This document shows, in pieces, positions 923-62,064 of a stretch of 64,000 bases of DNA. Made by a program: the position numbers and the translations under genes. The stretch lies in the NCBI GenBank assembly GCA_964035545.1, contig OZ037767.1, positions 30,804,128 through 30,868,127 on the forward strand, in the 5' to 3' direction. The number at the start of each line of letters is the position of its first letter. Position 1 is the first letter of the stretch. The notes under the pieces are model-generated. The model did no database searches and had not been told where the DNA came from. It saw only the letters and a program-made list of their open reading frames with translations. Source of the DNA: Bugula neritina. Taxonomy: Eukaryota > Bryozoa > Gymnolaemata > Cheilostomatida > Bugulidae.

Positions 923-2969
923 GTGGATCTAGTTGAAGGATATGCAGAGATTAAGGATAGAATACAGAGACTTGTATCTGTTGAGATACCTGAACTAGAA
1001 CTGTGTGATGTCATGACTCTAGAGGTCAAAGGTTAGTTGGTACAAGCTGACTATTGTATATTCATGTGGTACTGTGTTATTGAATATGTTGTATTTATGT
1101 TTACTATCTACATCATAGTTTAGCTATACTCTCTTATATTAATTACTAGATTTAATTGTATAGGAAAGATAGAACATTACAACTCATGTGTAGAATACAA
1201 TAACCATACACACCAGTTTATCAACATTACTTCTACTTGTCATATAATACAGTGTAGAGATCTTTGTATAAACTCACTATACTTTTATACTCTTTGAAAC
1301 CCCATGTTGATCTATCATTATACTTGCTACTATTATATAATATATTCACTACTATTATATAATGTTATGTTAACTGCTATTATATAATAGATTTTCTACA
1401 AACTCACCCTATTTCTATATTCTTTATCACTCCATGTTGAACTATAATGTTATCTTTCCTATTATATACCATTATCTTCACTACTGTTACATTATATTAT
1501 ATTCTCTACTGTTTTATAATATATTATTTCCATCACTAACATATAGTATTATTTTCACCATTATTATATAATGTTATATTCTCTGCTATTATATAATGTT
1601 ATATTCCCTACAAATAGTATAGTATAATATATTTAAATAGTATATCAAGTACTATTTTATAATATGTTTACTTTATGCTATTATTTGCTTTACTATATTT
1701 ATATATACTTTACAGGAGAGAAGAGAGACATAGAAGTAGATTTAGTTTCTGCAGCAGGCGTATCTACTAGTTTGGATCAAGGAGTGACAACTTCTACTAC
1801 TCCTAATTCTCTCAAACTCTTTCAGTCTGTTGATGTTTCTAATTCTTGTTGGTCGGTCTGTAGCTATGAGGGTAACACTTATGTAGGACTACATAGTGGT
1901 AGAGTAGACAGAGTAGACGAGAACTATAATGTTACTCAGTCATTTGTTACAGTCAGTGGTTCCGTGTTTGGTCTTACAGCATATAAAGATCAGCTGTATA
2001 GTTTAGTGCTTGATGGCAGTAATAATTGCAAGGTAGAAGTGTATGACTTTAGTGGGAATCAGGTGACCAGTTGGACCCATAGTGATATTAGTAGTGGGTA
2101 TAGCAATGCACTTGTTATAGTTGATGATCAGGTCGTAGTCCCCGATAGACCAAGTAGAAGACTCACAATCTACTCTCTTACTGGGGAGGTAATTAAACAT
2201 GTGCCCTGCTCTCTACTTAGTAACAGTAATGTAGCTATATGTGCAGCAGACAGACACTGTGTAGTAGTTACTGATTACTATTCCTCTCAAGTATTTAAGT
2301 TGGACCTGACAACAGAGAAAGTCATCTGGACATGTAAGGATGTGACTAACCCACAAGGTGTGACCTGCTATGGAAGTAAATATATTCTTGTGACTAACTG
2401 CAGCAGTAAAACTACTATCTGGATACTGGATGTGAAGACAGGTTAGTTGGTGTTTCTTCTACCATATGGGAAGCTCTTGTACACACACTATAGTTGGTTT
2501 GCGTGTATGCTCTCAGTCTAACCTTTAGATGAAAGCTATTACATGTTATATCATCATATATTATTACTACCAATGTATATGGTACCTAGAAAGTATAGGA
2601 AACCTTTGCCATATATAATGCAGTATAACCCTGTATAGTCATTACCTATAATATTCTCATATAATATAATATAGTTTCTTATTAACAGAGTATACAGTAG
2701 CTAGAGAGTATAGAAATCCTTTGTCTTATATAATGTAGTATAACCAGGTTCTTTATTGGTATATAATATAAAATAATTTGATATTTGAGAACATAATATA
2801 CTAAGCATAGGATATTGCATCATATCCTGTTGCAGGCACACAGCTGGCTAAGATAGAAGATCCAACTATTAGAGAGAATAGTATTGTATTTGATCTCCAT
2901 GTGTATAGAGACACTCTGATTGTACCCAGATATAATGAGAAGAAAGTTCTGTTCTACCAGCTCAAATGA
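923..2969 (+). CDS. Gene A (partial): TRIM-NHL-like protein, exons 6-8
   Basis: The 3' part of a TRIM-like gene; exons 1-5 lie before the window. Exons are 923-1031 (end of the coiled coil), 1716-2441 (five propeller blades) and 2836-2969 (sixth blade, stop TGA at 2967). All junctions are GT-AG and the phases (0, 1, 1) match the seven other copies. Exon 7 has NHL-like blades: a strand, a short turn (YEGNT, YKDQL, VDDQV, AADRH, YGSKY), a second strand, a variable loop, then a third strand and a Gly-type turn. The domain should bind protein or nucleic acid ligands for the N-terminal RING ligase, by analogy with TRIM-NHL proteins. At 726 bases its exon 7 is the longest of the eight, two codons more than most. 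No stop or frameshift is seen in these exons. Confidence 0.82.
1322..1391. repeat. 22-bp minisatellite remnant in intron 6 of gene A
   Basis: About three units of the AT-rich repeat TATTCACTACTATTATATAA (plus TA) that is much longer in genes C, D and E. The rest of intron 6 (1392-1715) is low-complexity AT-rich sequence with degenerate relatives of the unit. Confidence 0.7.
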
Positions 2970-4603
2970 ACAGGTATTATATAATACTGTATTTTATAGT
3001 CAAAGGGGATCTCTTGTATTATTTAATATAATATATTGATAAATATATTTCATGCTGAGGCTTTAAACCTGTAAATTACTGAATTTACTCCTTGTTTTCA
3101 TTTGCTCATATAATATTATCCTCTAATGTTTTCACTGCTGTCAATCTTTATCTCAGTAAATGAAGGTTTATAATCTTTGACAATATTATTCTATATGATA
3201 GTGTAATGTACTTCCTGTTATGTTGATACTCACATCTGATTGGTGTATGTTGTAGGTCATGTGGAGATAACCCTTACACTGTGTCAAAATGCTTGCTAGT
3301 TCTTGGGTACACCTGAGAATATCTTAGTAGTTGTCTTCTTACTCTTAGAATGTCTCAGTCAGTACCAACTGTTTATATTAAATATTGTTTAGTAAATTGC
3401 AGCAACTCCTAATATTTGTCTTTTACTTATCTCTTTGTTCTTTGATATTGAAAACAATCTTTTACAATAATAATATTGTTTACTGATGGTGAAATGATAA
3501 TTGCACTTTGTTCTGGTAAATACATGTAGGTTTGCATGCAGTGGCTGGGTTTATTATACAATATTATATTGTTTGTATTTTGCTAAACAAAAACTTTTAA
3601 TATTATTCTTTTTTTTCATATTTCACTTTATTATTTTTTACTTTCAAAACTACTTTTAGCTATTATTGTGGTGATTATGGTTGCTTGTAACGAATTTTAG
3701 TTGCAACATTTAATGTTTTATGTAAAGTTTATGATTGAGATTTCTTCAAATGCAATATAACTATAATTATTTTGTTCCTGTTTCCCTCCTTCTTGATGTG
3801 CACTAGTTCCACCCTAAATCTAATTGTAGGCAAAATTATTGAGTTGGTTATATATTGAACAATATGATTCTTCAGCAGTTTAAAAACTGATGTTTTTAAT
3901 TCCTTTTTATTAGTAAGATTTCGAAGCACAAATCACTTGAATGCTGCAACTAATGAGAACTCATGAATTCACTGACAATTCTCATGTAACTCACATATCC
4001 ATATTCATGTATGATTCACATTGTAGCAGGTATATGCAGTGTACAGCAGGTGTGCACAATTTATCAGAAGTTCACTCTAGTAGATGTACATACTGTAGCA
4101 AACATACAGTTTATATCTTATAAATTTTGTGGTTGTAAAAAACTTTAACCACTGGTTTTTCTTTCAACTGTTACAACATTCCTACATATTTTTTAATATA
4201 CAAATACAGCTTATAACGAAGACAAGTCTAAAAGGTTGATAGCTAGACTATCAATAAGTTAGTTGAAATTGGCGATTAGCATCAGTTGTCAATATGAGAT
4301 AGTAAATGTGAACTTGTTTTGTGCACTACTGCTGTAGCAAGTAAATGCTATTGACTTTTACTATTGTGATATTTTCCGAATGTACTTATATATGCGGCAA
4401 AGATATTATTTATATTATAGTATATACACACACGCATCAAACTTATAACCATTCAGACTTTAAAGAATTAAATATTATTGCATTGTGCAAGGCAAAAAGC
4501 AAGAGAGTTGTCCTGCCTTCGTGAGCATAAAACAATTTTCGAGACTTCAAGCTGCGAAAACGGCATTGCTATTTCTGGTGGGGAATACCCAAATGAAATT
4601 CTC

Positions 4604-6862
<2,259 letters not shown>

Positions 6863-8149: not shown

Positions 8150-11100
8150 ATGGCTGAAGCAGAACCCAGGGAGATAGAGTGTGGGTTTTGTTTGTTAAAG
8201 GAAGGTCTTGAGAACCCAAAGTCTCTACCCTGTGGTCATATACATTGTTTAGTTTGTCTAACTAGAAATGTTGATGTGAATGACCTGATCAGATGTCCCT
8301 GGTGCAGGTAAATTATATTACATACTATGTTATTCTCAGACTACAAGTGTATCTATTTAACTTCATAGTGTGACCCTGATGCATGTTGAGTGTACTTTCT
8401 ATTATATTCTGCATTATATGTGTTACAGAGAAGTGTTTGATGTGAGTATAGAGACTCTGCCTTCTGCTGATGTAGAGGACAACTTCACATCATGCACTGT
8501 CTGTACTAAGAAGGGGATAAAGAATATCCCAGCTGTGATATACTGTACTGTGTGCAGTAAACTCTTTTGTGGAAAACATAGAGAGGTACTTTAATGTTGA
8601 TTATCTTGTTTGAACAATTGAAACTGTGTAGAGAATGAAACCAGACAAAAACACCTGCCTTCCTGACATTCAATATCTTCTTTAGGCCCATGACATTGTT
8701 AATGATGATCACCAGCAGTTGACCATATCAGAATACAGAATACAAGCTAAGAGACTGGAAAGAAGAGTTTGTTCTAAACACACAGACTACCAAATATCTC
8801 AGGGATGTAAACTCTGTGCTCAACTGTTTTGTGTGCAGTGTTTATCCCAGGCCGACTCTTGTGTTGGAGGTGAAATTTTTATATTGCTCCTAATACTATT
8901 TATTCACATTTAGTGTGCATGATAATTGGGAAAAAATATTTACTATACTCTATAATGACTACAACATTCTTGTCTGTTGGCTGGAATTAGTTACTAGAGT
9001 TGCCTCACACCTAGTAAATGGGATTTTATATATACAAATTATAGTAAATTGATAGCAATATTTGTGGTCGTCTAACTGAAATGACACCCAAATCATTGTG
9101 GATTCTGTTAATGCTTTATCCTGTAAAATTAACTGTAGCTTAGTAATACATTTCCAGGTTCAGATCATAAAATGCTCAGTCTGGATGACCTCATCAAGGA
9201 ACTGGTGAATGTAGAAGAACTGATTACTACAGAAGACAAAGTATCTTCTCTATTCAAACGACTTTCTAAAACTATATCTGACTTTGATACTGAAACAGGA
9301 GAGTTACTAGACATTCTCCATACACAGCGTGATGAACAGGTGTGATTGTTATCACTTTTTCTAGAATGTGTTTGTTTCCTGTCACACCATGTAAAGGTTT
9401 TAATGGTTTACTCGTATGTTTTAGTTGGCTGAGGTGAGACTAAAGTATGAAAAACTTGAAGAGGAGTTCTTAGCTAGTAGAAAGAAAACTAAAGATGCAC
9501 TGGATTCATACATGGAGAGAGAAGTTGGAACTGTTTTGTCTGAACTGAGTAAAAGTAGAATGAAGATAGAAGCTCAACTGAGACAAAACAATCAGGTGTG
9601 TAGAGTTGAGATACAAATAACTTGTGTTGAATAATTGATTCCAAAAAACACAGTGTTGTTGTGAATTTATGCTTCACTGCAATCAACGGGTTTATTTATT
9701 GAAAGCCACTTCACCAGGTTTGTAATGAATAAGAGTTTATTTATGGCTAATTATACACGAATATAATATACAACAACTAACACAACTGTTACATAATAGA
9801 GAGCTATTAACACACGACTTTACATTAGTACAATTCAGTCCTCTCTGCCGGCTAATTTATCAGGCAAGCTTCCACTATACATACGCAGCTCCGCTTACTA
9901 CTAATTATTGTCTACATCCCATTGGTTGTCACGGTGGTGCCATCGTACTGAAGAATGACATGATGTCTACTGCATTATGTTTCAGGTGGAAGAGTTATCC
10001 TTTCGATATAATACCAAATATTTACAGTATTGTACAAGTTGTGCAAAATTACTCAAGTTGTTAAGAGTTTCATTTTATTTTTCAACAGTTTCTGGGTTTG
10101 CTTGTAAAGCATTGTTTGAACTGGTCTTAGACATACAGGATAATTGCATCGCATGATTATCTGTTGTACATGAAAATAATTTTGCCTTTGTGAATAAATG
10201 TGAATTGTTGAATTGATAGGATAGTTTTTTAAAGAGGGAGATATTTTCAAGATTTTGAGAAACCTCTTGAGTGAACTCATGTCCCACTAAATTTCATAGT
10301 TAGATGCCAAAGGCATGATTTTTAAACTCATGTTTGTTTTTGTATTCCAAAATGTGGTTTTAAAAAGAAGCTTAAAAAGGTTGATGTTGATATTTATTCT
10401 CTCTATTCAAAATGTTCTGATTATTGGAGAAGTTTTATTAAAATTTTCTAATCAAATTTAGAAGCTGGTTTGTAAAGGCACATATTGCATGTTTTTATTA
10501 AATAGCAGTGAGTCAGTGACATTTATTGAGTAGATTTATTAAGTTTTTATTCTGCATCAACCAAGAAAGAATCAGCTTTAATTTCACATTATTGTTGCTA
10601 ATCTTCCTGTAATTATAGTTGATCTCTATTCACAGGTGGATCTAGTTGAAGGATATGCAGAGATTAAGGATAGAATACAGAGACTTGTATCTGTTGAGAT
10701 ACCTGAACTAGAACTGTGTGATGTCATGACTCTAGAGGTCAAAGGTTAGTTGGTATAAGCTGACTATTGTATATTCATGTGGTACTGTGTGGTATACATT
10801 GTATTCATGTCATATGATACAGTGTAGAGATCTTTGTACATACTCACTTTACTTCTATACTCTTTATTAATATATGTTGAACTATCATTATATTCACTAC
10901 TATTATATAATATATTCACTATTATTATATAATATATTCACTATTATTATATAATAATATATTCACTACTATTATATAATATATTCACTACTATTATATA
11001 ATATATTCACTACTATTATATACTATATTAACTACTATTATATAATATAGTCACTGCTACTATATGAATATTCAACAAAAAATCCAATATTGTTTCTACC

Positions 11101-12420
11101 ATTTAATAATTTGATTTTACATACACATAATAATATAAATTTATGTATTCTTTACAGAAGAGAAGAGAGACATGGAAGTAGATTTAGTTTCTACAGCAGA
11201 CGTATCTATTAGTTTGGATCAAGGAGTGACAACTTCTACTCTTCCTAATTCTCTCAAACTCTTGCAGTCTGTTGATGTTTCTAATGCTTGTTGGTCAGTC
11301 TGTAGATATGAGGGTAACACTTATGTAGGGCGGTATGGTGGAGTAGCCAGAGTAGATGAGAACTATAATGTTACTCAGTCATTTGTTACAGACAGTGGTT
11401 TTGTGTTTGGTCTTACAGCATATAAAGATCAGCTGTACACTTTAGCTTGTGAGGGCAGTAATTGGAAGGTAGAAGTGTATGACTTTAGTGGGAATCAGGT
11501 GACCAGCTGGTCTCACAGTGATACTAGTATGGGGTGTATCAATAAACTTGTTATAGTTGATGATCAGGTTGTAGTCCCTGATAGACCAAGTAAAAGAGTC
11601 ACAATTTACTCTCTTACTGGGGAGGTAATTAAACAGGTGCCCTGCTCTCTACTTAGTGACAGCTGTGTAGCTATATGTGCAGCAGACAGACATTGTGTAG
11701 TAGTTTCTGATTACAATTCCTCTCAAGTATTTAAGTTGGACCTGACAACAGAGAAAGTCATCTGGACATGTAAGGATGTGACTAACCCACAAGGTGTGAC
11801 CTGCTATAGAAGTAAATATATTCTTGTGACTATTTACAGCAGTAAAACTACTATCTGGATACTGGATGTGAAGACAGGTGAGTTGGTGTTTATTCTACCA
11901 TATGGGAAGCTCCTGTACACACACACTATTGTTGGTTTGCATGTATGCTCTCAGTCTAACCTTTAGATGAAAACTATTACATGCTATATCATCATATATT
12001 ATTATTAACAATGTATGTGGTAGCTAAAAAGTATACACAACATTTGCCATATATAATGCAGTATAATAATTAATATTACAGTCATTACATATAATATTAT
12101 ATATAATATAGTTTCTTATTAACAGAGTATACAGTAGCTAGAAAATATAGAAAACCTTTGTCTTATATAATGTAGTATAACCCTGTAATCAAGTTCTTTA
12201 TTGATATATAATACTCGTATAATAAAATTTGATATTTGAGAACAGAATGTGTTAAACAGAGGTTGTTACATCATTTCCTGTTACAGGCACACAGCTGGCT
12301 AAGATAGGAGATCCAACTGTTAGAGAGAATAGTCATGTACTTGATCTCCATGTGTATAGAGATACTCTGGTTGTACCCAGACATGATGAGAAGAAAGTTC
12401 TGTTCTACCAGCTCAAATAA
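8150..12420 (+). CDS. Gene B: complete TRIM-NHL-like RING/B-box/coiled-coil/propeller protein, 604 aa
   Basis: Eight exons: 8150-8307, 8429-8585, 8686-8869, 9158-9339, 9425-9595, 10636-10744, 11158-11877, 12287-12420; all introns are GT-AG and the frame is open to TAA. The start ATG follows ACAAG and precedes a complete RING. RING ligands are C11, C14, C28, H30, C33, C36, C49 and C52 (CGFC, CGHIHCLVC, CPWC), a C3HC4 pattern expected to bind an E2 ubiquitin-conjugating enzyme. A B-box1-like module has C75, C78, C92, C95, C100, H103 and H107/H114. A B-box2-like module has C134, H137, C146, C149, C154 and C157, with C164 and H170 as likely last ligands. Residues about 170-320 are charged and heptad-like (coiled coil, dimerisation). 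Residues about 355-604 form six NHL-like blades. Likely a cytosolic E3 ligase; substrate unknown. Intron 5 holds a 369-bp insertion. Confidence 0.87.
9650..10028. mobile_element. 369-bp insertion in intron 5 of gene B, unknown family
   Basis: Positions 9655-10023 are absent from intron 5 of the other copies, which read ACAGTATTGTG. The insertion is bounded by the direct repeat ACAGT (9650-9654 and 10024-10028), consistent with a 5-bp target duplication. It is less AT-rich than its surroundings. It has no long frame and no clear terminal inverted repeats. A solo LTR or other retroelement remnant is possible, but clean TG..CA ends do not coincide with the duplication. Confidence 0.55.
10891..11062. 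repeat. 22-bp minisatellite in intron 6 of gene B
   Basis: About eight units of TATTCACTACTATTATATAA(TA), some with ATTATTAT variants. It lies about 100 bases upstream of the propeller exon 7. Confidence 0.85.
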
Positions 12421-15324
12421 ACAGGTATTATATAATACTGTATTTTATAGTCAAAGGGGATCTCTTATTATATTTAATATAATATATTGATAAATATATT
12501 TCATGCTGAGGCTTTAAACCTGTAAATTACTGAATTTACTCCTTGTTTTCACTTGCTCATATAATATTATCCTCTAATCTTTTCACTGCTGTCAATCTTT
12601 ATCTCAGTAAATGAAGGTTTATAATCTTTGACAATATAATTCTATATGATAGTGTGATGTACTTCCTGTTATGTTGATACTCACATCTGATTGGTGTATG
12701 TTGTAGGTCATGTGGAGATAACCCTTACACTGTGTCAAAATGCTTGCTAGTTCTTGAGTACACCTGAGAATATCTGAGAAGTTGTCTTCTTACTCTTAGA
12801 ATATCTCAGTCAGTGCCAACTGTTTATATTAAATATTGTTTAGTACATTGTAGCAATTTCCTAATATTTGTCTTTTATTTATCTCTTTGTTCTTTGATAT
12901 TGAAAACAATCTTTTACAATAATAATATCGTTTACTGATGGTGAAATGATAATTGCATTTTGTTCTGGTACATGTAGGTTTGCATGCAGTGGCTGGTTTT
13001 ATTATTTAATATTATATCGTTTGTATTTTGCTAAACAAAAACTTTTAATATTATTCTTTTTTTTCATATTTCACTTTATTATTTTTTACTTTCAAAACTA
13101 CTTTTATGTATTATTGTGGTGATTATGGTTGCTTGTAACGAATTTTAGTTGCAACATTTAATGTTTTATGGAAAGTTTATGATTGAGATTTCTTCAAATG
13201 CAATATATATGATTATAATAATTTTTTTCCTGTTTCCCTCCTTTTTGATGTGCACTAGTTACACCATAAATCAAATTGTAAGCAAAATTATTGAATTGAT
13301 TATATGTTGAACAATATGATCCGTCAGCAGTTTAAAATTTGATGTTTTAAATTCCTTTTTATTAGTAATATTTTGGGGCAGAAATCATCTGAATGCTGCA
13401 ACTAATGAGAACTCATGAATTCACTGACAGTTCTCATGTAACTCACATATCCATATTCATGCATAATTCACATTGTAGCAGGTATATGCAGTGTACAGCA
13501 AATTTGCACAATTAATCAGAAATGCACTCTAGTAGATGTGCATATTGTAGCAAGTTTATATCTTACAAATGATGTTTTTTGGCTGTGAAAAACATCAACC
13601 ACGATATTTCCTTTCAACTGTTACAACATTCCTTCAGCTGTAGGAAGTAAATGCTATTGACTTTTAATCAACAAACTCTTTTGGTACTTTATTTACCGAG
13701 TGCACATATATATTCGGCAAAAATATATATAGTTATATACCGTTACCCGAACTTTGATAGGTGAGAATATATTATATTTATAATAATATTATAGTATAAT
13801 TATATACGCACAAACGCATCAAACTTATAACCATTTAGATTTTAGACCGTAGAGAATTATATAATAATATTGAATTGTGCGGAGCGAAAAGCAAGAGAGT
13901 TGTCTTTTCACGGTGACCATAAGCTGATTTTCGGGGCTGCAAGCTGCGAAAACATCTTTGATACTTCCGGTGGGGAATCCCCAAATGAAATTCTCAGTTG
14001 GAGTTTGGTGGAGATGTAGGTAAGTTGAATATTGGCAAATACTGAAAGTTGTTATACCAATTTATGCTTGTACTTTTGGCCTTAAAATCTCGTAATATTT
14101 TTGTACCCGAATTGAAGTTTTTTTGGGATTAAATTTATATCACTAGATGTGAACTCGACATGGGCCTTGGGACTGAGGTTTGCTGCACAATTTCAACTTC
14201 AAGTTGTACTACAGTTATAAGTCTAAGACCAAAGTTCAGTTTCATTTTGATTGTAAAATGATTAATATTAATATTGAATATAATATTAATAATGCTAATT
14301 CGTTGTCCTAATACTAACCTTGTTTGTGTTTTACTCTGATGGTGATTGTCTTCAGGCCTTAGATTCTTATAGATATACTAATACTTATAGTTATAGTCAT
14401 ACTTATAGTTATACTCTTATAGTATAACTGTTATAGTTATATTTTTCAAAAATTCAGTAAATTGACTTAAACTTAAAATTTATAGATGTTTTTACTCAAA
14501 TATACAGGTCATTTTTATTTAGATGAGCATTAATGTAATGATTAGCATGAACGCTAGTTTTGTTTTGAGTTTAATATTGACAATTGTAATATATAGTATT
14601 TGTGCTTCCATATTTTTACAGTTTCTTGGCATAAAAAGTACCTAATCTTGTGAAAAAAAGTGCTCTTCAGTTAATAAAGTTTTCAGTCAGCATGTTGGCA
14701 AAGAACGTTGCCTGCTGCATTGTGCAACTCTTTTTTTAGTCAGATGAATGAGAAACGTATGAATTTTACCTCAACAAAGTATAACTTCTTACTTTCTAGC
14801 TGATGGTTAATCATCTATCATTAATAATGCATTTCTATCTTTGCACCTCAAATATTTACATAAACATGTAGCCTAATAAGTAGATGATTCTATTTTCCTG
14901 AAATGAGTTGGAACAGCAGATAGTGTCTTAAAACGTATGGTTTTTGTTCCATTCAGCTAGAGTTTGAAGCACTATTTTTTGTTCCTCTTATGTGATAGCC
15001 TACTATCTACTCTACTCCTTTTGGAAATAATTTGACAAGCTTTATATTAAGTTGATTTTATACCCGTAAGTCCACAGGTACTCAACATAAAATATTCTCA
15101 ATATATCAAATAATTAGTTCTTTTAGTCTTTTGTTTTCTAAATACTCACTTCACATGAACTAACCATGTAGCTCCATGATAATTACGTGAACACAGCTAT
15201 AGTTATGACTGCTAGTTAATCTAATATATACACATAGTCTTGTAAACATTGTTCAGTTTCTTTTCTATAAAAATTATCTAATGTATATTTATTTTAGGTA
15301 TTTTGACACATTTATTGAAACAAG
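12421..15324. other. B-C intergenic spacer, type 2
   Basis: No convincing gene. It starts with a possible 3'-UTR intron (GT at 12425, AG at 12705-12706). Type 2 markers, shared with the G-H spacer, are CGTTACCCGAACTTTGATAG near 13741 and a run of ATACTTATAGTTATA repeats at about 14375-14430. The small cysteine frame of type 1 spacers is interrupted here by TAA. The upstream dyad is shortened to CAACTTCAAGTTG. Confidence 0.7.
15266..15272 (+). promoter_or_regulatory. TATA-like box upstream of gene C (tentative)
   Basis: TATAAAA lies 53 bases before the start codon, aligned with the same sequence upstream of B and H. Confidence 0.22.

Positions 15325-17180: not shown

Positions 17181-17242
<62 letters not shown>
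17181..17242. repeat. (TA)n microsatellite inside the hAT element
   Basis: About 30 uninterrupted TA dinucleotides, near the left end of the transposon. Confidence 0.9.
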
Positions 17243-17245
<3 letters not shown>

Positions 17246-17451
17246 GCAATATATTTTGTTATATTATATTTGCATATCCTATGATTAAGATAACATTATT
17301 ATTATCGTTATGAAACACAGAGCAGTTCAGTTATTAATGTTATGGCTGCAGCTGATAATATTGTGCCAGCTTGCTTACGTCTGGCTCTGTGTTTGATCAG
17401 GCCCATCTTAGGTCACCTTGCAGGTTGAGGCAGTTTCTCTTCTCTTTGAAT

Positions 17452-19577: not shown

Positions 19578-20072
19578 TGCTACTATTATATCATATATTC
19601 ACTACTATTTTATAATATATTCACTACTATTATATAATATATTCACTACTATTATTTAATATATTCACTACTATTATATAATATATTTACTACTATTATA
19701 TAATATATTCACTGCTATTATATAATATATTCACTATTATTATATAATATATTCACTGCTATTATATAATATATTCACTATTATTATATAATATACTCAC
19801 TGCTATTATATAATATATTCACTACTATTATATAATATATTCACTGCTATTATATAATATATTCACTGCTATTATATAATATATTCACTGCTATTATATA
19901 ATATATTCACTGCTATTATATAATATATTCACTACTATTATATAATATATTCACTACTATTATATAATATATTTACTACTATTATATAATATATTCACTA
20001 CTATTATATCATATATTCACTACTATTTTATAATGTTATGTTAACAGCTATTATATAATATATTTCCTACAA
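19578..20072. repeat. 22-bp minisatellite in intron 6 of gene C
   Basis: About 22 tandem units of TATTCACTACTATTATATAA(TA) with CTGC/CTAC and TTCACT/TTTACT variants, ending about 320 bases before exon 7. Confidence 0.92.
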
Positions 20073-35278: not shown

Positions 35279-35356
35279 CCCACTAATATACAAATGTTCA
35301 ACTATAAACAGATATTGTTTCTACCATTTAATAATTTGATTTTACATAACATAATA

Positions 35357-35362
<6 letters not shown>

Positions 35363-35406
<44 letters not shown>
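35363..35406. repeat. (TA)n tract next to the exon 7 acceptor of gene E
   Basis: A pure TA run ends only 9 bases before the exon 7 acceptor; other copies have TTTATATATACTTTACAG there. The acceptor CTTTACAG itself is kept. Confidence 0.85.
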
Positions 35407-35408
<2 letters not shown>

Positions 35409-47199: not shown

Positions 47200-50095
47200 A
47201 TGGCTGAAGCAGAACCCAGGGAGATAGAATGTGGGTTTTGTTTGTTAAAGGAAGGTCTTGAGAACCCAAAGTCTCTACCATGTGGTCACATACATTGTTT
47301 ACTTTGTCTAACTGGAAATTATGACGCTAATGACCTGATCAGATGTCCCTGGTGCAGGTAAGTTTTATTATAAACTATGTTATTCTCAGACTACAAGTGT
47401 ATCTATTTAACTTCATAGTGTGACTCTAATTCATGTTGAGTGCACTTTCTATTATATTCGGCATTATATATGTTACAGAGAAGTGTTTGATGTGAGTATA
47501 GAGACTCTGCCTTCTGCTGATGTAGAGGACAACTCCACATCATGCACTGTCTGCACTAAGAAGGAGATGAAGAATATCCCAGCAGTGATATACTGTACTG
47601 TGTGCAGTAAACTCTTTTGCAGAAAACATAGAGAGGTAACACGATCTAGATTATGTTGTTGTATATACTAAACTTGTATAAAAACGAAACATTTTCTTAT
47701 CATCAATACTTTTGTAGTCACATGATAACTTGAGTTGTGACCACCAGCAGATGACTATCTCCCAATATCGGATACAAGCTAAGAGACTGGAGAGAAGAGT
47801 TTGTTCTAAACATACAGATTACCAAATATCTATGGGATGTAAACTCTGTGCTCAACTGTTTTGTGTCCAGTGTTTGTCCCCGACTGATTCTTGTGCTGGA
47901 GGTAAATTTGTTGTAAATGTCATGTTTTAAAAATTTTAAAATTATTTGTTCAAAATCACTATCAACATGTATGATAATCTAGCAGGAGAATACTTACTAT
48001 ACTATAAAATAACTAGAATATTCTCGTCTGCTGACTTAAATTTGTTGTTGTTGGTTGGTGATTCATGCCTGGTTAAAGGGATTTATCTCATTTATTATTG
48101 TTTAGATTATTATTCAAAGTATTTTTTCCAGGTTCAGCCCATCTCATGCTCAGTCTGGATGACCTCATCAAGGAGCTGGTGAATGTAGAAGAACTGATTA
48201 CTACAGAAGACAAAGTATATTCTCTCTTCAAACAACTTTCTAAAACTATATCTGACTTTGATACTGAAACAGGAGAGTTACTAGACATTCTCCATACACA
48301 GCGTGATGAACAGGTGTGATTGATATCAAATTTTCTAGAATGTGTTTGTTTCCTGTCACACCGTGTAAAGGTTTTAATGGTTTACTCGTATGTTTTAGTT
48401 GGCTGAGGTGAGACTTAAGTATGAGAAACTTAAAGAGGAGTTCTTAGCTAGTAGAAAGAAAACTAAAGATGCACTGGATGCATACATGGAGAGAGAAGTT
48501 GGAACTGCTTTGTCTGAACTGAGTAAAAGTAGAATGAAGATAGAAGCTCAACTTAGACAAAACAATCAGGTATGTTGAGTTGAGTGTTTCTGGAGAGAAT
48601 ATTTGTTGGTCTAATTGTTGTGTAGTTGATACTGTTTAGAAGCTACTTTGTTATTCTGATAATAATTGACACGTTACACAGGTGGATCTAGTTGAAGGTT
48701 ATGCAGAGATTAAGGATAGAATACAGAGACTTGTATCTGTTGAGATACCTGAACTAGAACTGTGTGATGTCATGACTCTAAAGGTCAAAGGTTAGTTTGT
48801 CTAGTAAACTATGACTATTTTGTATAGCGGGATTATACATAGACTAGATTGTCCTACAGTTTCTCAATCATAACTTCTACACTGTATTATTACACACAAT
48901 ATCATTATTAACTTCACTCTATAACTTATCTTTACAGGAGAGAAGAGAGACATAGAAGTAGACTTAGTTTCTGCAGCAGACGTATTTATCAGTTTGGATC
49001 AAGGAGTGACAACTTCTACTCTTCCTAATTCTCTCAAACTCCTGCAGTCTGTTGATGTTTCTAATCCTTGTTGGCCAGTTTGTAGATATGAGGGTAACAC
49101 TTATGTAGGATTAACTGGTAGAGTAGACAGAGTAGATGAGAACTATAATGTTACTCAGTCATTTGTTACAGTCAATGATTACGTGTGTGGTCTTGCAGCA
49201 TATAAAGATCAGCTGTATAGTTTAGTGCGAGTTGGCAATACTAGTTGGAAGGTAAATGTGTATGACTTTAGTGGGAATCAGGTGACCAGCTGGACCCATA
49301 GTGATAATACTTGGTGTACCAATACTCTTGCTTTAGTTAATGATCAGGTTGTAGTCCCTGATAGGCAAAGTAAAAGACTCACAATCTACTCTCTTACTGG
49401 GGAGGTAATTAAACAAATGCCCTGCTCTCTACTTAGTAACAGTCATGCAGCTATATGTGCAGCAGACAGACACTGTGTAGTAGTTTCTGATTACAATTCC
49501 TCTCAAGTATTTAAGTTAGACCTGACAACAGAGAAAGTCATCTGGACATGTAAGGATTTGACTAAACCAGAGGGCGTGACGTGCTATAGAAGTAAATATA
49601 TTCTTGCGACTGAACCCAGCCGTAGAACTATTATCTGGATACTGGATTTGAAGACAGGTTAGTTGGTGTTTATTCTAGTATATTCTACTACTTTCTGTAA
49701 AAAGTTTGTTCAATACATGAGTTCACATATATTATAGTTGAGTTGCATAATTTCTCTCCCAGTCAAAATGACAAATGGAAAGTATTTTTATAATGGTATA
49801 ACATATAATAGAGTTAGATGCAGTAGCTAGAAAGTATAAAAGCTCTGTCATATATGATCTAGTGTAAAACTGAAGGTTCTTTGTTGGTAATAATTTAACA
49901 GTTTCTGATATTTCGAAACGGTAATATGTTAAAAAAGTCATTACATCATTTTCTGTTACAGGCGCACAGTTGACTAAAATAGAAGATCCAACTGTTAGAG
50001 TGAATAGTCATGTATTTGATCTCTATGTGTATAGAGACACTCTGATTGTACCCAGAAGTGGTGACAGGAAAGTTCTGTTCTACCAGCTGAAATAA
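47200..50095 (+). CDS. Gene G: complete, compact and most divergent TRIM-NHL-like protein, 604 aa
   Basis: Exons: 47200-47357, 47479-47635, 47718-47901, 48132-48313, 48399-48569, 48682-48790, 48938-49657, 49962-50095 (stop TAA). Zinc ligands are complete (TGNYDANDLIRCPWC in the RING; exon 3 begins SHDNLSCDHQQM; exon 4 GSAHLML). The gene spans only 2.9 kb. Intron 5 is 112 bp and intron 6 is 147 bp, with no minisatellite, and introns 2, 3, 5, 6 and 7 are poorly alignable to the other copies. Flanking spacers do align, so the gene body differs within homogenised surroundings. Propeller loops include NPCWP, VNDYVCG, RVGNTSWKVN, DNTWCTNTLA, SNSHAAI, EPSRRTI and PRSGDRK. No lesion seen. Confidence 0.87.
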
Positions 50096-51121
50096 ACAGG
50101 TATTACATAATATTGTATTTTATAGTAAGACGGGATCTCTTATTTTATTTAATATACCGTATATTGATAAATATATTTCATGTAAATATTTTAAACCTGT
50201 AAATTACAGAATTTACTCCTTGTTTTCATTTGCTCATATAATATTATCCTCTAATCTTTTCACTGCTGTCAATCTTTATCTCAGCAAATGAAGTTTTATA
50301 ATCTTTGGCAATATTATTCCATATGATAGTGTAATGAACTTCCTGTTATGTTGATACTCACATCTGATTGGTGTATGTTGTAGGTCATGTGGAGATAACC
50401 CTTACACTGTGTCAAAATGCTTGCTAGTTCTTGAGTACACCTGAGAATATCTTAGGAGTTGTCTTCTTACTCTTAGAATGTCTCAGTCAGTGCCAACTGT
50501 TTATATTAAATATTGTTTAGTAAATTGTAGCAATTTCCTAATATTTATCTTTTACTTATCTCTTTGTTCTTTGATATTGAAAACAATCTTTTACAATAAT
50601 AATATTATTTACTGATGGTGAAATGATAATTGCATTTTGTTCAGGTAAATAAATGTAGGTTTGCATGCAGTGGCTGGGTTTATTATATAATATTATATCG
50701 TGTGTATTTTGCTAAACAAAAACTTTTAATATTATTCTTTCTTTTCCATATTTCACTTTATTGTTTTTTACTTTAAAGATTCTTTTGAGTTTTGACAATT
50801 ATTGTAGTTATTATGGTTGCTTGTAACGAATTTTATTTGCAGCATTTAACGTTTTATGGAAAGTTTATGATTGAGATTTCTTCAAATGCAATATATATGA
50901 TTATAATTATTTTGTTCCTGCTTCCCTCCTTCTTGATGTGCACTAGTTACACCCTAAATCAAATTGTAAGCAAAATTATTGAATTGATTATATGTTGAGC
51001 AATATGATTCTTTAGTAGTTTGAAAATTGTTGTTTTAAATTCAAATTTATTAGTAATATTTTGAGGCAGAAATCATCTGAATGCTGCAACTAACGAGAAC
51101 TCGTGAATTTACTGACAGTTC

Positions 51122-53980: not shown

Positions 53981-56900
53981 ATGGCTGAAGCAGAACCCAG
54001 GGAGATAGAATGTGGGTTTTGTTTGTTAAAGGAAGGTCTTGAGAACCCAAAGTCTCTACCCTGTGGTCACATACATTGTTTAGTTTGTCTAACTAGAAAT
54101 GTTGATGTGAATGATCTGATCAGATGTCCTTGGTGCAGGTAAATTATATTTCATACTATGCTATTCTCAGACTACAAGTGTATCTATTTAACTTCATAGT
54201 GTGACTCTGATTCATGTTGAGTGTACTTTCTATTATATTCGGCATTATAATAGTTTGTATCTTTATGTGTTACAGAGAAGTGTTTGATGTGAGTATAGAG
54301 ACTCTGCCTTCTGCTGATGTAGAGGACAACTCCACATCATGCACTGTCTGTACTAAGAAGGGGATAAAGAATATCCCAGCTGTGATATACTGTACTGTGT
54401 GCAGTAAACTCTTTTGTGAGAAACATAGAGAGGTACTTTAATGTTGATTATCTTGTTTGAACAATTGAAACTGTGTAGAGAATGAAACCAGACAAAAACA
54501 CCTGCCTTCCTGACATTCGATATATGTGACCTGGCACCACAAAACAAGGGATGTATATAAAATGTTGAAAACCTAGTTATTACTATGGAGTGATAGAGCA
54601 GACTTTTTCAAACATTTTGCACTTTATTTGAAGTCTCTAGCATAAATAGAACTCGAGATATTAATATTTAAAAACCTTAACGTTTTTAGAATTTCTAAAT
54701 TACTGTTTCGAGAAAATCGCATTTAAAGTTGGCAACTCTAGAATAAGTTGAGAATTATTTGTTTACAATTTACAAGCCTTAGCAACGGGTCTTTGTATAA
54801 TAGGAATGGTGACAAATTTGGTACCAAAATAATTGTGAAAATTTGGGCTTTCTGTTAAACTAAATTTTATGCTGCCTCAATTTAAAATTAGGTCAAATAT
54901 GGCCGCCAAACTTTTTGTCTAATTCATTTGTCAATTTGCTTTTTATTTTGTTTATTTAATGAAAGGTTTAACAATTCCAGCAAAGAAGAGGATGTTTCAG
55001 CAAGTTTGTGTGTTGAGATATTTAAATTAGGCATCCAAGTCAGCAGGAAGTCATATAAAACAAAATGGCAGCTGCTTCCTGTTATACATTGAATATCTTC
55101 CTCTCCTCTAATATATTGTGTAATATATCAAACTGCAGCTATTGAGCTGTGCTGTTTCATAGTTATTGCTTAATGAGTAGAACACTTATGAGAAAATTAT
55201 TTGACTATTATGAGATCATTCGAGATTCATTCATAAATATCTTTATAATCTCTAACGGCAACTAAATTTAGCAATTGATGTTGAAAATATAAACATAAAA
55301 TCAGCTATTAGAACGTTTGAGTTTTATTAGGCATTAATATTCACATTTAAAACATCAAACACATTATTTTAAAAAATTAATTAAATGCAGTAAAAAATCC
55401 AGCCTGGATACAACCATTGTGCTTGAATTAACTCTAATCAAGAGAAGAAAATTAGGTAGCTTCTACGGTTTTTGCAAAAAAGGCACTTTTCATCTTTCTA
55501 CTTCCTTGGTCTTCATAATATGAGTTTACGGAGTATGAACACATAACATCATGTGTGTGGCAAAAGCTTCATCACTATCATCAGCTGATTTTCTAACAAT
55601 TATAGATGCTGCTACTTGACATCCATCCTGCCAATCTACCCATCTATTGTCTATTCCAGAGCTGCAAGTACAATGTTGACTTTTTTAAATAACAAAAGAA
55701 AACGGTAGCTTGATGAGAAACTATACGCAGTTATATTATAAAAATTTAGTTGGTTAAACACTCTTGTGGTACTACTATAGCAGCAGTTAATTGTCATCCT
55801 GCATTTTATCAACATTTAAATTTATTGAATTAAACAGAACAATTTAAATTAAAAAAATTGTTGAAAATTTTCAAGCACATCATTAAAAGACTGCAAACCT
55901 TTTTATGAATGAAATAAGCAGAAGCCATAACCTTGCAAGCCAAAATTCAGAGTGTCTACATTAGAAGTATTAGATTGATAGGTAGTAGAGTTGTGTAGGT
56001 TTAAGTCTTCACTCTAATGCTCTCATAAGTCCACTTTCTAAAATGTACAGAATATCGGATTATTCTATATTAACATAGTATTATCAGTAAAATTACACAT
56101 TATGCACTTGAATATCTAGCATATCTGCAATTGGCAATTTTGAAGCAATGTCTATTAACCACTCAAGCATTTAATTGAGTAAAAAAGCTAGCTAAGTGCA
56201 ACTGAATCTATTACAGACATTTACTATAAAATCAATTTGAATTCAATAAATTACTTTAAAATATGAATAAATTTTTGCTCATCCTTTATAATAAAATTAA
56301 AAAGTTTAGACTATTTATGCATTCAGTTAGTGTTACTACTCACTAAATAAGACTAAAAGTAACTTACTGAAGAACTAAGTCAGTCAACTATAGAATTACC
56401 ATGAACTCGCATTAATATTTCATCATTATACTCATTTACATTTAATCACATTTACCATTTCAATTTGGTTAGAGGTGATGCTTTTATCAATATAAATAGG
56501 GTTATCAATTGAGCTTTGACAGTAACTGTAAGCCTGCATAATGTGATAAATATTTTATCATTATGTTTTAAATAAAACTTTAAGCTAATTTAAAAATCAC
56601 AAAAGGAACCGTTAATCGTAACAGTAATCAGTAACTGTATTGACAAAATCTAAGACAGAGGCTAAAAGTTACTAAGAGTAATTCTAATGTAAATTTAAAT
56701 ATCAACTATAAAATAAATCAATAAATATAATACTATCAGTATGAGTATCAAGTGCTTACGCTAATCTAGTGGTCTAACGTGATTGCATCTTCAAGTAAAT
56801 CAAGTAAGTAAGGCGAAACTCAGAGTCAGACTCAAATAGTGAATTTAATTATTAATCATTACTTAAGTTATGCTATTAATATTAATGAGCTACATTTGGT

Positions 56901-59900
56901 TTTACTGCCAAATACCAGTATCAGCAAATCATGAATGATATTCATTATGATTATCATTATGAGTAACCGTACCTCAAACTGTGAGTCATAGTGAGTCATT
57001 TAAATAGTTACTAATATAGAATAGACATACTCCTAGTGATATTCATATTATCAGTATGAATATTAATAAGAAAATAACTACAAATAATCCTAGCAACAAT
57101 TCTAAGTTAGTAGCGTAAATGATGGTTTTGAGTATAATTACCTGCATTGTTGTGATTTTCAAGCTTGAACGCTAAAGATAAAGATTAAGTTTAGCATTTA
57201 TCACCAAAGGGCAAAACAGCTCAGTAACTTAAAAGCTAACTTCGGATGGAGCACGATGAAAAACTAAAACTAGCCTTCGATTTTAAATACGATGCTTCTG
57301 ACAATGCGAAGAAAGAGGTGTAAGCTAAATTCATTTGATAAAAAATAAATTTGCAAGATCTCATGCTATGAAAATGACTAAAATTGTCTTCTTTCTTTAC
57401 TTGATAACTTCGCAATTTTTTCATCATTTAAAAAATTGAATGCCTTAGTTACCAACTTTAAATGCAATTTTAGAGCTGAAGGAATCATCAAATGCTTACG
57501 AAAGTATGATTTTTGAAATCCTTGGATTTTTTTGTATTAGAAAAGTTCAAAACCTAAAAACTGGAAATTAATTTCAAATTTAAGTATTTCCAAATTAAAC
57601 CTTCATTTACTACACTTTATAAACGCCGCCACATCCCCGGTTTTGTCGCGACTGGTCACATATTTTCTAGGCCCATGATGACTTAAATGATGATCACCAG
57701 CAGTTGACCATATCAGAATACAGAATACAAGCTAAGAGACTGGAAAGAAAAGTTTGTTCTAAACATACAGATTACCAAATATCTCAGGGATGTAAACTCT
57801 GTGCTCAACTGTTTTGTGTGCAGTGTTTATCTCAGGCCGACTCTTGTGTTGGAGGTGAAATTTTTATATTGCTCCTAATACTATTTATTCACATTTAGTG
57901 TGCATTATAATTTGAAAAAAAAATTAAATGTACTCTATTATGACTACAACATTCTTGTCTGTTGGCTGGAATTAGTTACTCACACCTAGTAAATGAGATT
58001 TTATATATACAAATTATAGCAAATTGGTAGCAAAATTTTGGGTCGTCTCACTGGAAGTCGTCTAACTGAAATGACACCCAAATCATTGTGGATTCTGTGA
58101 CTGTTTTATCCTGTAACATTAACTGTAGTTTAGTAATACATTTCCAGGTTCACTACATGACATGGCTGGGTTAGATGACCTCATCAAGGAACTGGTGAAT
58201 GTAGAAGAACTGATTACTACAGAAGACAAAGTATCTTCTCTATTCAAACAACTTTCTAAAACTATATCTGACTTTGATACTGAAACAGGAGAGTTACTAG
58301 ACATTCTCCATACACAGCGTGATGAACAGGTGTGATTGATATCACATTTTCTAGAATGTGTTTGTTTCCTGTCACACCGTGTAAAGGTTTTAATGGTTTA
58401 CTCGTATGTTTTAGTTGGCTGAGGTGAGACTAAAGTATGAGAAACTTGAAGAGGAGTTCTTAGCTAGTAGAAAGAAAACTAAAGATGCACTGGATGCACA
58501 CATGGAGAGAGAAGTTGGAACTGTTTTGTCTGAACTGAGTAAAAGTAGAATGAAGATAGAAGCTCACCTCAGACAAAACAATCAGGTGTGTAGAGTTGAA
58601 TTACAAGTAACTTGTGTTGAATCATTGAGTCTGGGTTAAAATTATGTGATGATTGTATCGCATGATTATCTGCTGTACATGAAAACAATTTTGTTTTGGT
58701 GAATAAATGTAAATTGTTGAATTGATAGGATAGTGTGAAGAATCTGGAAATATTTTCAAGATTTTGAGAAAACCCCTGAGTGAACTGATGTTCCACTAAT
58801 GACTAAAGTACAAGTATATTTCATAGTTAGATGTTAAAGGGATGATTTCTGAACTCCTGTTTGGTTTTATATTCCAAAAAGCAGTTTCAAAAAAGAAGCT
58901 TAAAAATGTTTATGTTGATATTTATTCTCTCTATTGAATATTTTCTGATTGCTGGAGAAGTTTTATTAAAATTTTCCAATCAAATTTAGAAGCTGGTTTA
59001 GCTGTGTGGCTATTTTAGGTCTGTAAAGGCACATATTGCATGTTTTTATTAACTATCAGTGAGTCAGTGATATTCACTGAGTAGATTTTTTAAAGTTTTT
59101 ATTCTGCATTAAACAAGAAAGAATCAGTTTTAATTTCACATTATTGTTGCTAATCTTCATGTAATTATAGTTGATCTCTACTCACAGGTGGATCTAGTTG
59201 AAGGATATGCAGAGATTAAGGATAGAATACAGAGACTTGTATCTGTTGAAATACCTGAACTAGAACTGTGTGATGTCATGACTCTAGAAGTCAAAGGTTA
59301 GTTGGTACAAGCTGACTATTATATGTTCATGTGGTACTGTGTTACTGAATCACCGGCTTTCCATGTACCGATCTCAGATCGATCTTAGCGAGATCGATCC
59401 ATGGAAAGACGCCAAAGATCCATCTCCGTTGATCTGAGCTGGTCGGTCTGTGGAGCTCGAACTCAGATCGATCTCATGTCAATAAGACCATGGAAAGACG
59501 CCAGATCGATCTGAGAAGTAGAAAAAGACTGCGCGCTACAATGTTGTCTGCTAATAAAAATGACAACTTATTGATAATTACTAAGCAAAGTATTAAATAA
59601 TTATGATAGCCACCTTTTCAGATGCCAAAACTTTGACTTTCAGTATAATGATTAAGAAAACTCAATTATATGCAGTAAAAGGTAAAAAAATGCGAGAATT
59701 TAAATTGAATTTAAATGACTATTAAAACTTAGTTTCATTATAGCTATTTTCTTTGCAATTTTAAGCCTAACAGTCCTGTAAGTTTATTAATAATCTGCAA
59801 GACAGCCATTAATTTTATATAAGCTGTCAAGCTAAAAACTTAAAATTAATTATTTTAAATTGGCCAAATTACCATACACTGAAAGCTTTGCTGCGTATAG

Positions 59901-62064
59901 TTTATAGCTGGGATTAAATTTTAGCTTACTACCATCTTGTTTTCAACAGTAGTAGCTTTAATCACTCAAATAGGTGGACAAATTATACTTTTAAAGTATC
60001 CTTCACTTAAGAGGAGGCAACTTCGCGAGTTCGATCTGACACTCTCATGGAAAAACGATCGATCTGAGATCGGTACATGGAAAGCCCGTGAATATGTTGT
60101 ATTTATGTTTACTATCTACATCATAGTCAATCTATACTCTCTTATATTAATTACTAGATTTAATTGTATAGGAAAGATAGAACGTTACAACTCTTGTGTA
60201 GAATACAATAACCATACATACCAGTTTACTAACATTACTTCTACTTGTCATATGATACAGTGTAGAGATCTTTGTATATACTTCCTATAATTTTATACAA
60301 GTTTGTGTATTCTTTGAAACCCCAGCGTTGAACTGTCATAATATTTTCTGCTACTATATAATATATTCACTGCTATTATATAATATATTTACTACTATTA
60401 TATAATATATTCACTACTATTATATAATATATTCACTACTATTATATAATATATTCACTACTATTTTATAATGTTATGTTAACTGCTATTATATAATAGA
60501 TTTCCTACAAACGCATCCTATTTCTATATTCTTTATCACTCCATGTTGAACTATAATGTTATCTTTCTTATTATATAACATTATCTTCACTACTGTTACA
60601 TTACATTATATTCTCTGTTCTTTTATGATATATTATTTCCATCACTAACATATAGTACTATCTTCACTATTATTATATAATGTTATATTTTCTGCTATTA
60701 TATAATGTTATATTCCCTACAAATAGTATAGTATAATAATTGTGTTTAAGTAGTAGATTCAGTACTATTTTATAATATATTTGATTTATGCTATTATTTA
60801 ATTTAGTACATTTATATATACTTTACAGAGGAGAAGAGAGACATAGAAGTAGATATAGTTTCTACAGCAGACGTATCTATTAGTTTGGGTCAAGGAGTGC
60901 CAACTTCAACTCTTCCTAATTCTCTCAAACTCCTACAGTCTGTTGATGTTTCTACAAATTGTTGGCCAGTTTGTAGATATGAGGGTAACACTTATGTAGG
61001 ACTGCCTGATAGACTAGACAGAATAGATGAGAACTATAATGTTACTCAGTCATTTGTTACAGTCAGGGGTGTTGTGTTTGGTCTTACAGCATATAAAGAT
61101 CAGCTGTATAGTTTAGTACGAGTTGGCAATACTAGTTGGAAGGTAAATGTGTATGACTTTAGTGGGAATCAGGTGACCAGCTGGTCTCATAGTGATAATA
61201 TTGGGATTAGCAATAAACTTGTTATAGTTGATGATCAGGTTGTAGTCCCTGATAGACCAAGTAAAAGACTCACAATCTACTCTCTTACTGGGGAGGTAAT
61301 TAAACAAGTGCCCTGCTCTCTACTTGGTAACAATTGGGTAGCTATATGTGCAGCAGACAGACATTGTGTAGTAGTTACTGATAACAATTCCTCTCAAGTA
61401 TTTAAGTTAGACCTGACAACAGAGAAAGTCATCTGGACATGTAAAGATGTGACTAGACCACAAGGTGTGACCTGCTATAGAAGTAAATATATTCTTGTGA
61501 CTAACTACAGCAGGAGAACCACTATCTGGATACTGGATGTGAAGACAGGTTAGTTGGTGTTTATTCTACCACATGGGAAGCTCTTGTACACATACTATAG
61601 TTGGTTGGCATGTATGCTCTCAGTTTAACCTTTAGATGGAAGCTATTACATGCTATATTATCACATTATATTATTACTAACAATGTATATGGTAGCTATG
61701 AAGTATAAAAAACCTTTGTTAAATATAATGCAGTATAACTTTATACTCATTACATATAATATTATCATATATAATATAGTATCTTATTAACAGAGTATAC
61801 AGTAGCTAGAGAGTATTGAAATCCTCTGTCTCATATAATATAGTATAATCCTGTAGTGGGGTCTTTGTTGACATAACAATAGAGAAAGTAATATGTTAAA
61901 TAAAGAATATTACATCATTTCCTGTTACAGGCACACAGTTGACTAACATAGAAGACGCAACTGTTAGAGAGAATAGTTATGTACTTGATCTCCATGTATA
62001 TAGAGACACTCTGATTGTACCCAGATGTAATGAGAAGAAAATTCTGTTTTACCAGCTGAAATAA
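53981..62064 (+). CDS. Gene H: complete TRIM-NHL-like protein, 604 aa, with two transposons in introns
   Basis: Exons: 53981-54138, 54276-54432, 57671-57854, 58148-58329, 58415-58585, 59188-59296, 60829-61548, 61931-62064 (stop TAA). Coding exons are open and zinc ligands complete; exon 3 begins AHDDLNDDHQQL and exon 4 GSLHDMAGL. Intron 2 is expanded to 3.2 kb by an inverted-repeat element ending 11 bases before the exon 3 acceptor (TATTTTCTAG). Intron 6 contains a 740-bp element. Exon 7 starts AG-GAG-AAG instead of GA-GAG-AAG, giving EEKRD. Propeller loops include TNCWP, GLPDRLDR, VRGVVFG, RVGNTSWKVN, SDNIGISNKL, GNNWVAI, TRPQGV and NYSRRTT. Whether exon 3 is spliced efficiently with the new upstream context is uncertain. 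Confidence 0.83.
54526..57659. mobile_element. 3.1-kb inverted-repeat element in intron 2 of gene H
   Basis: The left end reads GTGACCTGGCACCACAAAAC and the right end, inverted, GTGACCAGTCGCGACAAAAC. Imperfect inverted arms extend about 200 bp, to GCATTTAAAGTTGGCAACT (about 54720) and its inverse near 57450. Flanking ATAT on both sides may be a target duplication, but AT-richness makes this ambiguous. Other copies have a 100-bp intron here. No long frame is present. A short minus-strand segment near 55540-55660 (VDWQDGCQVAASIIVRKS) is open but unrecognised. Probably a non-autonomous DNA transposon; the superfamily is not assigned. Confidence 0.75.
59348..60093. mobile_element. 740-bp non-autonomous DNA transposon in intron 6 of gene H
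   Basis: The element is 59351-60090, with 34-bp terminal inverted repeats (59351-59384 against 60057-60090) that differ at one position. It starts CACCGGCTTTCCATGTACCG. AAT flanks it on both sides (59348-59350 and 60091-60093); other copies read CTGAATATG once, so the duplication is 3 bp. Subterminal CAGATCGATCT and CATGGAAAGACGCC motifs repeat several times in the first 170 bp. A CAC start with a 3-bp duplication would fit a CACTA-like element; PIF/Harbinger is an alternative. No transposase. Confidence 0.82.
60343..60500. repeat. 22-bp minisatellite in intron 6 of gene H
   Basis: About six units of the TATTCACTACTATTATATAA(TA) repeat. Confidence 0.85.

Follow-up and report, generated by a model that had tools for sequence, protein, structure and literature searches.

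We analysed a 64,000-nucleotide window from chromosome 3 of Bugula neritina, a bryozoan (C3:30804128–30868127 of a 216-Mb assembly). It holds eight copies, genes A to H, of a gene encoding a TRIM-like protein with a RING, B-box-like clusters, a coiled coil and a C-terminal propeller. Amino acid changes among these genes and their paralogs are concentrated in the loops of one predicted propeller face, and codons with a ratio of nonsynonymous to synonymous rates (dN/dS) above 1 gather there in four paralog sets. The explanation that we favour, and regard as probable, is a TRIM-NHL-like ligase family with a ligand-binding face diversified for intracellular non-self recognition.

The spliced protein of gene B is 604 amino acids long; its RING is followed by two zinc clusters that resemble B-boxes, then by a long coiled coil and the propeller. 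An alignment and a profile were made from five family proteins, including three Watersipora subatra paralogs at 36–37% identity. All eight ligands of the C3HC4 RING (C11, C14, C28, H30, C33, C36, C49, and C52) were invariant in the five proteins, and the RING region gave profile matches to TRIM28, TRIM56, TRIM23, and TRIM2; Pfam RING matches stayed under the cut-off. Two conserved Cys/His clusters follow the RING, for which the Pfam B-box E value was 0.001 at best, in two of the five proteins, and the B-box-like match of gene B was weak. The coiled coil is a single predicted helix (185–296) in the P0002 model, and the TRIM28 RBCC (RING, B-box, coiled coil) construct aligned with the profile over 13–220 (E 1.9e-5).

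The AF2 models of gene F exon 7 and of P0002 give a six-bladed propeller, all six blades being present in P0002. In the structure comparison, the top 14 rows were NHL domains (VIA), and WD40 rows came next within about 1.5 Z. The five-protein profile ranked 1l0q, a surface-layer propeller, first in the PDB (E 3.7e-8), then the Brat NHL domain (about 1e-6), followed by the TRIM28 construct, TRIM56, and other TRIM RINGs. These predictions agree with the propeller proposed in an earlier note on this DNA, the best-ranked solved relatives being TRIM-NHL propellers with some WD40 folds close behind. The Pfam NHL repeat model matched none of the five proteins, and the commonest Pfam match was PQQ_2 (four of five). 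We call the proteins TRIM-NHL-like rather than members of the TRIM-NHL class because the Pfam matches are weak and the NHL repeat match is lacking. Neither a B30.2 (PRY/SPRY) domain nor a NACHT domain was among the Pfam matches, the C-terminal domain being the propeller, and inspection by eye, without a tool, gave no evident signal peptide or membrane segment at the protein start. The sequences suggest that the genes encode cytosolic TRIM-NHL-like proteins with putative ubiquitin ligase activity. Two protein searches, which depended on shared 5-residue words and one of which covered the best 7996 candidates, returned four and one matches, all from W. subatra, and no relatives outside bryozoans.

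Each blade contributes one d-a loop and one b-c loop, and these 12 loops share the predicted top face; the turns on the opposite face hardly vary. The top loops of gene A, assigned from AF2 strands and codon models in exon 7 and from the predicted structure and codon models in exon 8, are as follows.

1835..1846, + strand: loop d6-a1 (VSNS), residues 40–43
1892..1900, + strand: loop b1-c1 (HSG), residues 59–61
1952..1960, + strand: loop d1-a2 (VSG), residues 79–81
2012..2026, + strand: loop b2-c2 (DGSNN), residues 99–103
2081..2113, + strand: loop d2-a3 (SDISSGYSNAL), residues 122–132, aligning with HPRGV of Brat
2147..2158, + strand: loop b3-c3 (RPSR), residues 144–147
2207..2230, + strand: loop d3-a4 (CSLLSNSN), residues 164–171
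2276..2287, + strand: loop b4-c4 (YYSS), residues 187–190
2336..2350, + strand: loop d4-a5 (KDVTN), residues 207–211
2399..2416, + strand: loop b5-c5 (CSSKTT), residues 228–233
2859..2885, + strand: loop d5-a6 (exon 8)
2931..2942, + strand: loop b6-c6 (exon 8)

All of the variable clusters listed in the earlier note overlap or touch these loops and cover all 12. Among 13 paralogs (A–D, F–H, and six from outside the window, with gene E left out), 7–13 distinct haplotypes were counted per top loop versus 1–5 per bottom turn; the turns between the clusters are nearly constant, as had been described. The most variable loop was d2-a3, with 13 haplotypes in the 13 paralogs. Among the three W. subatra paralogs, differences occur at 31 of 62 positions in top loops, 11 of 36 in bottom turns, 36 of 152 in strands, and 158 of the other 368, most of which are N-terminal. 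In this species the top loops exceed the strands (p 0.0003), the difference between top loops and bottom turns is not clear (p 0.09), and there is variation in the ligase part as well.

We applied our own codon site models (M0, M7, M8, and M8a) and a grid model that treats dS and dN separately to four paralog sets drawn up by genomic place. The C3 set holds 14 genes (all eight window genes, another five on chromosome 3, and one on chromosome 4), C6a holds 12, C6b holds 15 of 17 fetched, and C8 holds 16, represented by exon 7 only and all from 10.12–10.35 Mb. L052, with an in-frame stop, and L057, identical in protein to L056, were left out of C6b. The C6 and C8 genes lie outside the earlier observation. 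The comparison of M8 with M8a gave 171, 206, 211, and 246 for C3, C6a, C6b, and C8, respectively. The sites with a posterior above 0.95 for dN/dS > 1 were distributed as follows, with Fisher tests of top loops against bottom turns.

C3: top 17/66, bottom 0/38, strand 7/151, linker 1/30 (p 0.0002)
C6a: top 15/68, bottom 1/38, strand 7/150, linker 1/30 (p 0.009)
C6b: top 12/66, bottom 0/38, strand 8/150, linker 1/30 (p 0.003)
C8: top 11/51, bottom 0/35, strand 5/122, linker 0/31 (p 0.002)

In the four sets together, selected sites made up 55 of 251 positions in the face loops and 1 of 149 in the opposite turns. The variation had been described as confined to the top loops; it is concentrated there, but 27 of 573 strand sites, the one C6a bottom-turn site, and 3 of 121 sites of the N-terminal linker are selected too. 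The 22 selected strand sites of C3, C6a, and C6b all have a top loop as their closest labelled loop, but one of them is mid-strand (distance 4), and two are five residues away from the top loop on strand d6, whose end there carries no labelled bottom turn. The five selected strand sites of C8 are all on 'a' strands. In the grid model, the mean relative dS of top loops and strands was 1.23 and 1.18 (C3), 1.10 and 0.96 (C6a), 1.33 and 1.07 (C6b), and 1.11 and 1.11 (C8), and dN was 2.2 to 2.7 in the top loops versus 0.8 to 1.0 in the strands. In a joint exon 7 tree, C8, C6a, C6a plus C6b, and C3 with one extra gene inside (N, L029) formed clades. C6b was not a clade, since C6a nests inside it with low support (0.58), and we count three separate expansions rather than four for that reason.

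Rates were also counted without a tree in C3, C6a, and C6b. The C3 counts used 12 genes (A–D, F–I, Z, J, Lg, and M). Gene K, for which no exons 1–5 were found, was left out of these counts and of the exon 1–6 analyses, and gene E was left out of these counts, the PHI and run tests, and the gap-free and exon 1–6 analyses. The top loops of C3 had a dN of 0.232 and a dS of 0.130, a ratio of 1.79; the ratios were 0.79 in the bottom turns, where silent changes are few (dS 0.056), 0.42 in the strands (dS 0.130), and 0.69 in the linker. The corresponding ratios for top loops, bottom turns, strands, and linker were 1.34, 0.49, 0.59, and 0.90 in C6a and 1.30, 0.51, 0.58, and 1.00 in C6b. Top-loop and strand dS were 0.171 and 0.149 in C6a and 0.154 and 0.109 in C6b, so that top-loop dS was 1.0, 1.15, and 1.4 times strand dS in C3, C6a, and C6b, respectively. 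The divergence of intron 7 in nine C3 genes had a mean of 0.154 (range 0.04 to 0.34). In the 12 genes, exons 4 and 6 had a dS of 0.04, exon 5 one of 0.06, and exons 1 and 3 values of 0.23–0.25, an about six-fold unevenness that points to patchy homogenisation.

Recombination was examined by PHI and by trees of six segments, the finest resolution of breakpoints used, in C3, C6a, and C6b, and by mosaic simulation in C3. The PHI value was reached in 48 of 1000 permutations for C3 without gene E, which is marginal, and in 0 of 1000 for each of C6a and C6b. With a separate tree for each segment, M8 against M8a still gave 84 (C3), 106 (C6a), and 122 (C6b), with omega from 3.8 to 5.2, and the selected sites of the three sets were 40 of 200 in top loops, 0 of 114 in bottom turns, 14 of 451 in strands, and 1 of 90 in the linker. 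When C3 was simulated on the segment trees without positive selection and fitted with one tree, 40 runs averaged 16.3 and reached at most 47.3, against the observed 171. These results indicate that recombination inflates the site test, but not to 171. Each run also yielded 1 to 38 false sites; individual selected sites are for this reason to be taken cautiously, and the one-sided distribution is the stronger evidence. Removal of columns within 3 of a gap left 141 (C3 without E), 211 (C6a), 212 (C6b), and 150 (C8), and the selected sites remained one-sided throughout all controls. The run test on silent sites was unconvincing (16, 64, 139, and 141 of 300 permutations for C3, C6a, C6b, and C8, respectively). 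Within sets, the mean correlation of loop haplotype sharing was -0.02 to 0.05 for neighbouring and -0.02 to 0.02 for distant loops, a near-independent assortment that fits fast independent change or shuffling alike. Gene conversion among the copies is only partly supported.

Weak constraint, a mutational hot spot, wrongly aligned gaps or gene conversion could in principle produce the signal, and the recombination found in C6a and C6b, the inflated site test, and the higher loop dS of C6b speak for such an origin. Relaxed constraint was rejected since dN exceeds dS in the top loops of the three counted sets and, in C3, also exceeds intron divergence. A hot spot was rejected since the rise in loop dS, absent in C3, is far under the dN excess. 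Gap misalignment and gene conversion alone were rejected on the gap-free columns, segment trees, and mosaic null, all of which keep the signal. We consider an artefact or a neutral process very improbable. The one-sided pattern is unchanged by the count of three expansions instead of four, by loop dS of up to 1.4 times strand dS, and by the closeness of WD40 folds to NHL. With recombination allowed for by segment trees and the mosaic null, dN/dS stays above 1 at the variable codons, as the earlier note had expected; neither a fold other than a propeller or a scatter over both faces nor dN/dS at or below 1 was found. In regard to the ligase, which had been called constant, exons 1–6 of C3 are so by rate: their dN/dS is 0.25, and M8 against M8a gave 8.1 with one site, below the mosaic-null mean, though that null was built for exons 7–8. 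Genes C and E, on the other hand, look broken.

Trp, Tyr, Asn, Arg, and Cys are over-represented at the selected sites of C3, C6a, and C6b, whereas Lys, Val, Asp, Thr, and Ile are depleted there. The net charge of the top loops, counted from loop letters rather than over a surface, was -2 to +4 in C3, -4 to +3 in C6a, and 0 to +6 in C6b, and that of the bottom turns was 0 to -6. This chemistry appears to resemble antibody binding loops more than a strongly basic RNA-binding patch, although part of the enrichment may be mutational, the codons of Tyr, Cys, Trp, Asn, and His being near one another through single changes. It bears on the possibility that the face binds RNA, as Brat, Lin41, and Mei-P26 do with their top surface, and forms a repertoire against viral or transposon RNA. 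RNA-binding NHL domains are among the best-ranked folds, Arg is enriched, the C6b loops lean positive, and d2-a3 aligns with the Brat segment in which R875 is placed (residue number reckoned by hand), a residue required for RNA binding in the available part of PMC9070667. The same text describes RNA-binding NHL domains with a highly positive top patch, whereas the top-loop charge here spans -4 to +6 over the three sets and Lys is depleted, and we think RNA binding unlikely.

F-box and similar ligase families can expand for many reasons, and the propellers might be adaptors for many endogenous or symbiont-related substrates, their divergence reflecting substrate specialisation rather than conflict. 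Bugula has symbionts (PMC7576161, as far as its available text goes), but an amino acid excess at the same loops in four sets is, by our own generalisation, more typical of conflict, and this alternative seems improbable. Allorecognition, by which colonies or gametes would tell self from non-self, seems quite improbable. Bryozoans are colonial; yet the proteins have no export signal evident by eye, and colony fusion in animals leaves cytosols unmixed. In its favour, the same loops are selected in the allorecognition genes of Podospora (available text of PMC1805685).

We infer pathogen or self recognition, and pathogen recognition is preferred because export signals are not evident and because of the parallel with finTRIMs in the accessible portion of PMC2657112. 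For intracellular non-self recognition, the N-terminal RING, B-box-like clusters, and coiled coil would serve as a shared effector, a ubiquitin ligase oligomerising through the coiled coil, and the propeller would be the sensor, with the d-a and b-c loops forming the target-binding face. Diversifying selection would drive this face in many paralogs and leave the strands, the opposite face, and the ligase unchanged. The targets of the face may be proteins, or glycans, of viruses, bacteria or other intracellular non-self that changes fast, and binding would lead to ubiquitination or restriction of the target. The chances seem about even that the family is a germline repertoire of well over 100 cytosolic sensors on one ligase scaffold, with the 12 loops as independent specificity elements of antibody-like chemistry (Tyr, Trp, Asn, and Arg).

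Within the window, blastn with the exons of gene B placed all eight exons of genes C–H and exons 6–8 of gene A; gene B, also with eight exons, was defined from sequence, splice junctions, and its exon 1–6 translation.

923..2970, + strand: gene A (L023), exons 6–8 at about 923–1033, 1717–2441, and 2836–2970; exons 1–5 upstream of the window; exon 7 a single open reading frame
8150..12421, + strand: gene B, exons 1–8 at 8150–8307, 8429–8585, 8686–8869, 9158–9339, 9425–9595, 10636–10744, about 11158–11877, and about 12287–12421
15326..21630, + strand: gene C, exons 1–8; in-frame TGA at 16042–16044
24570..29282, + strand: gene D, exons 1–8
32453..36655, + strand: gene E, exons 1–8; exon 7 frameshifted near 36056
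39630..44009, + strand: gene F, exons 1–8; exon 7 the input of the structure model
47201..50096, + strand: gene G, exons 1–8
53982..62065, + strand: gene H, exons 1–8

The earlier note had included all eight copies in the pattern. Exon 7 is one open frame in seven of them and is broken in gene E, where two bases present in the other copies are missing near 36056 (36041–36066) and the frame shifts before the end of the propeller; the residues that had been quoted for its tenth loop lie beyond the frameshift. Gene E thus looks broken, as a pseudogene, a truncated form or an assembly error. In gene C, the TGA (within 16036–16052) takes the place of the GGA of gene B where exon 3 ends. Exon 7 of gene C is open and still diversified; the gene looks broken by a real stop or an assembly error. 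Rfam at gathering thresholds gave no match anywhere in the window. Between genes A and B lies a 289-base inverted repeat of 93% identity (arms 4750–5038 and 6411–6699) with 80-base arms further out (4655–4734 and 6717–6796); the whole (4655–6796) encloses an AT-rich repeat of about 1.4 kb and looks like a palindromic mobile element or a fragile site.

Exon 7 of gene A had at least 151 matches in the genome, across all nine chromosomes (150 of 222 candidates scored); among the 150 matches listed, 119 span at least 90% of the exon, and one of these has an internal stop. A C8 member used as the query also had at least 151 matches (150 of 190 candidates scored). Family clusters sit on C3, C4, C5, C6, C7, and C8. 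Gene K (L025, C3:31262800–31272700) has a partial exon 6 and exons 7 and 8, with no exon 1–5 match ahead of gene J, which comes next. Gene K may be a broken copy, or else an extra propeller cassette to which gene J splices alternatively. L056 and L057 (C6:11.48 and 11.54 Mb), about 56 kb apart, have identical exon 7 and exon 8 protein and are probably a very recent duplication. The RING exon as a query gave many weak RING exon matches at 3.4–9.4 Mb of C8 (about 31–47% identity), possibly another expanded ligase family.

The known TRIM-NHL proteins are conserved developmental and RNA regulators, and the immune diversification of TRIMs is known for the B30.2 domain; we know of no description of a propeller diversified for immunity in animals. 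If our reading is correct, animals would have in this family a propeller-based equivalent of the receptor repertoires of plants and fungi. Diversification of one face is what a set of proteins that sense or restrict many different targets should show. This propeller ligase family of a little-studied phylum looks like a recognition repertoire on the very loops that fungal allorecognition propellers use, and offers a concrete, testable candidate for a bryozoan innate immune repertoire with named loop residues to swap. No report of it was found among the papers listed from one open-licence library, where one search listed 20 of 621, and the available text of the B. neritina draft-genome paper names weak Alr1 similarities as allorecognition candidates and does not mention NHL genes (PMC7576161).

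The family resembles the TRIM-NHL proteins (Brat, Mei-P26, TRIM2, TRIM3, TRIM71, TRIM32, and Thin) in the order of RING, B-boxes (B-box-like clusters here), coiled coil, and C-terminal six-bladed propeller, in its best-ranked structural matches, and in profile matches to both halves of the protein. It differs in its fast-changing top face without a clear positive excess in the top loops, in the missing Pfam NHL repeat match, and in number, the class table of PMC3503706 listing single named genes in the part available. The B30.2 proteins finTRIMs and TRIM5alpha are likewise expanded TRIM ligases with strong positive selection on the loops of the ligand domain (the M7–M8 value for finTRIMs being 231.62 in the available text of PMC2657112), but that domain is a beta-sandwich and not a propeller with 12 loops. 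In the het-d and het-e genes of Podospora, according to the available text of PMC1805685, selection likewise acts on sites of the d-a and b-c propeller loops and there is exchange between family members, which is only partly supported in Bugula; these genes encode fungal NACHT proteins with near-identical repeat units, unlike the non-identical blades of this animal RBCC protein. By these comparisons, the loop logic matches that of het-d and het-e, from which the protein family differs, and the gene logic matches that of the finTRIMs.

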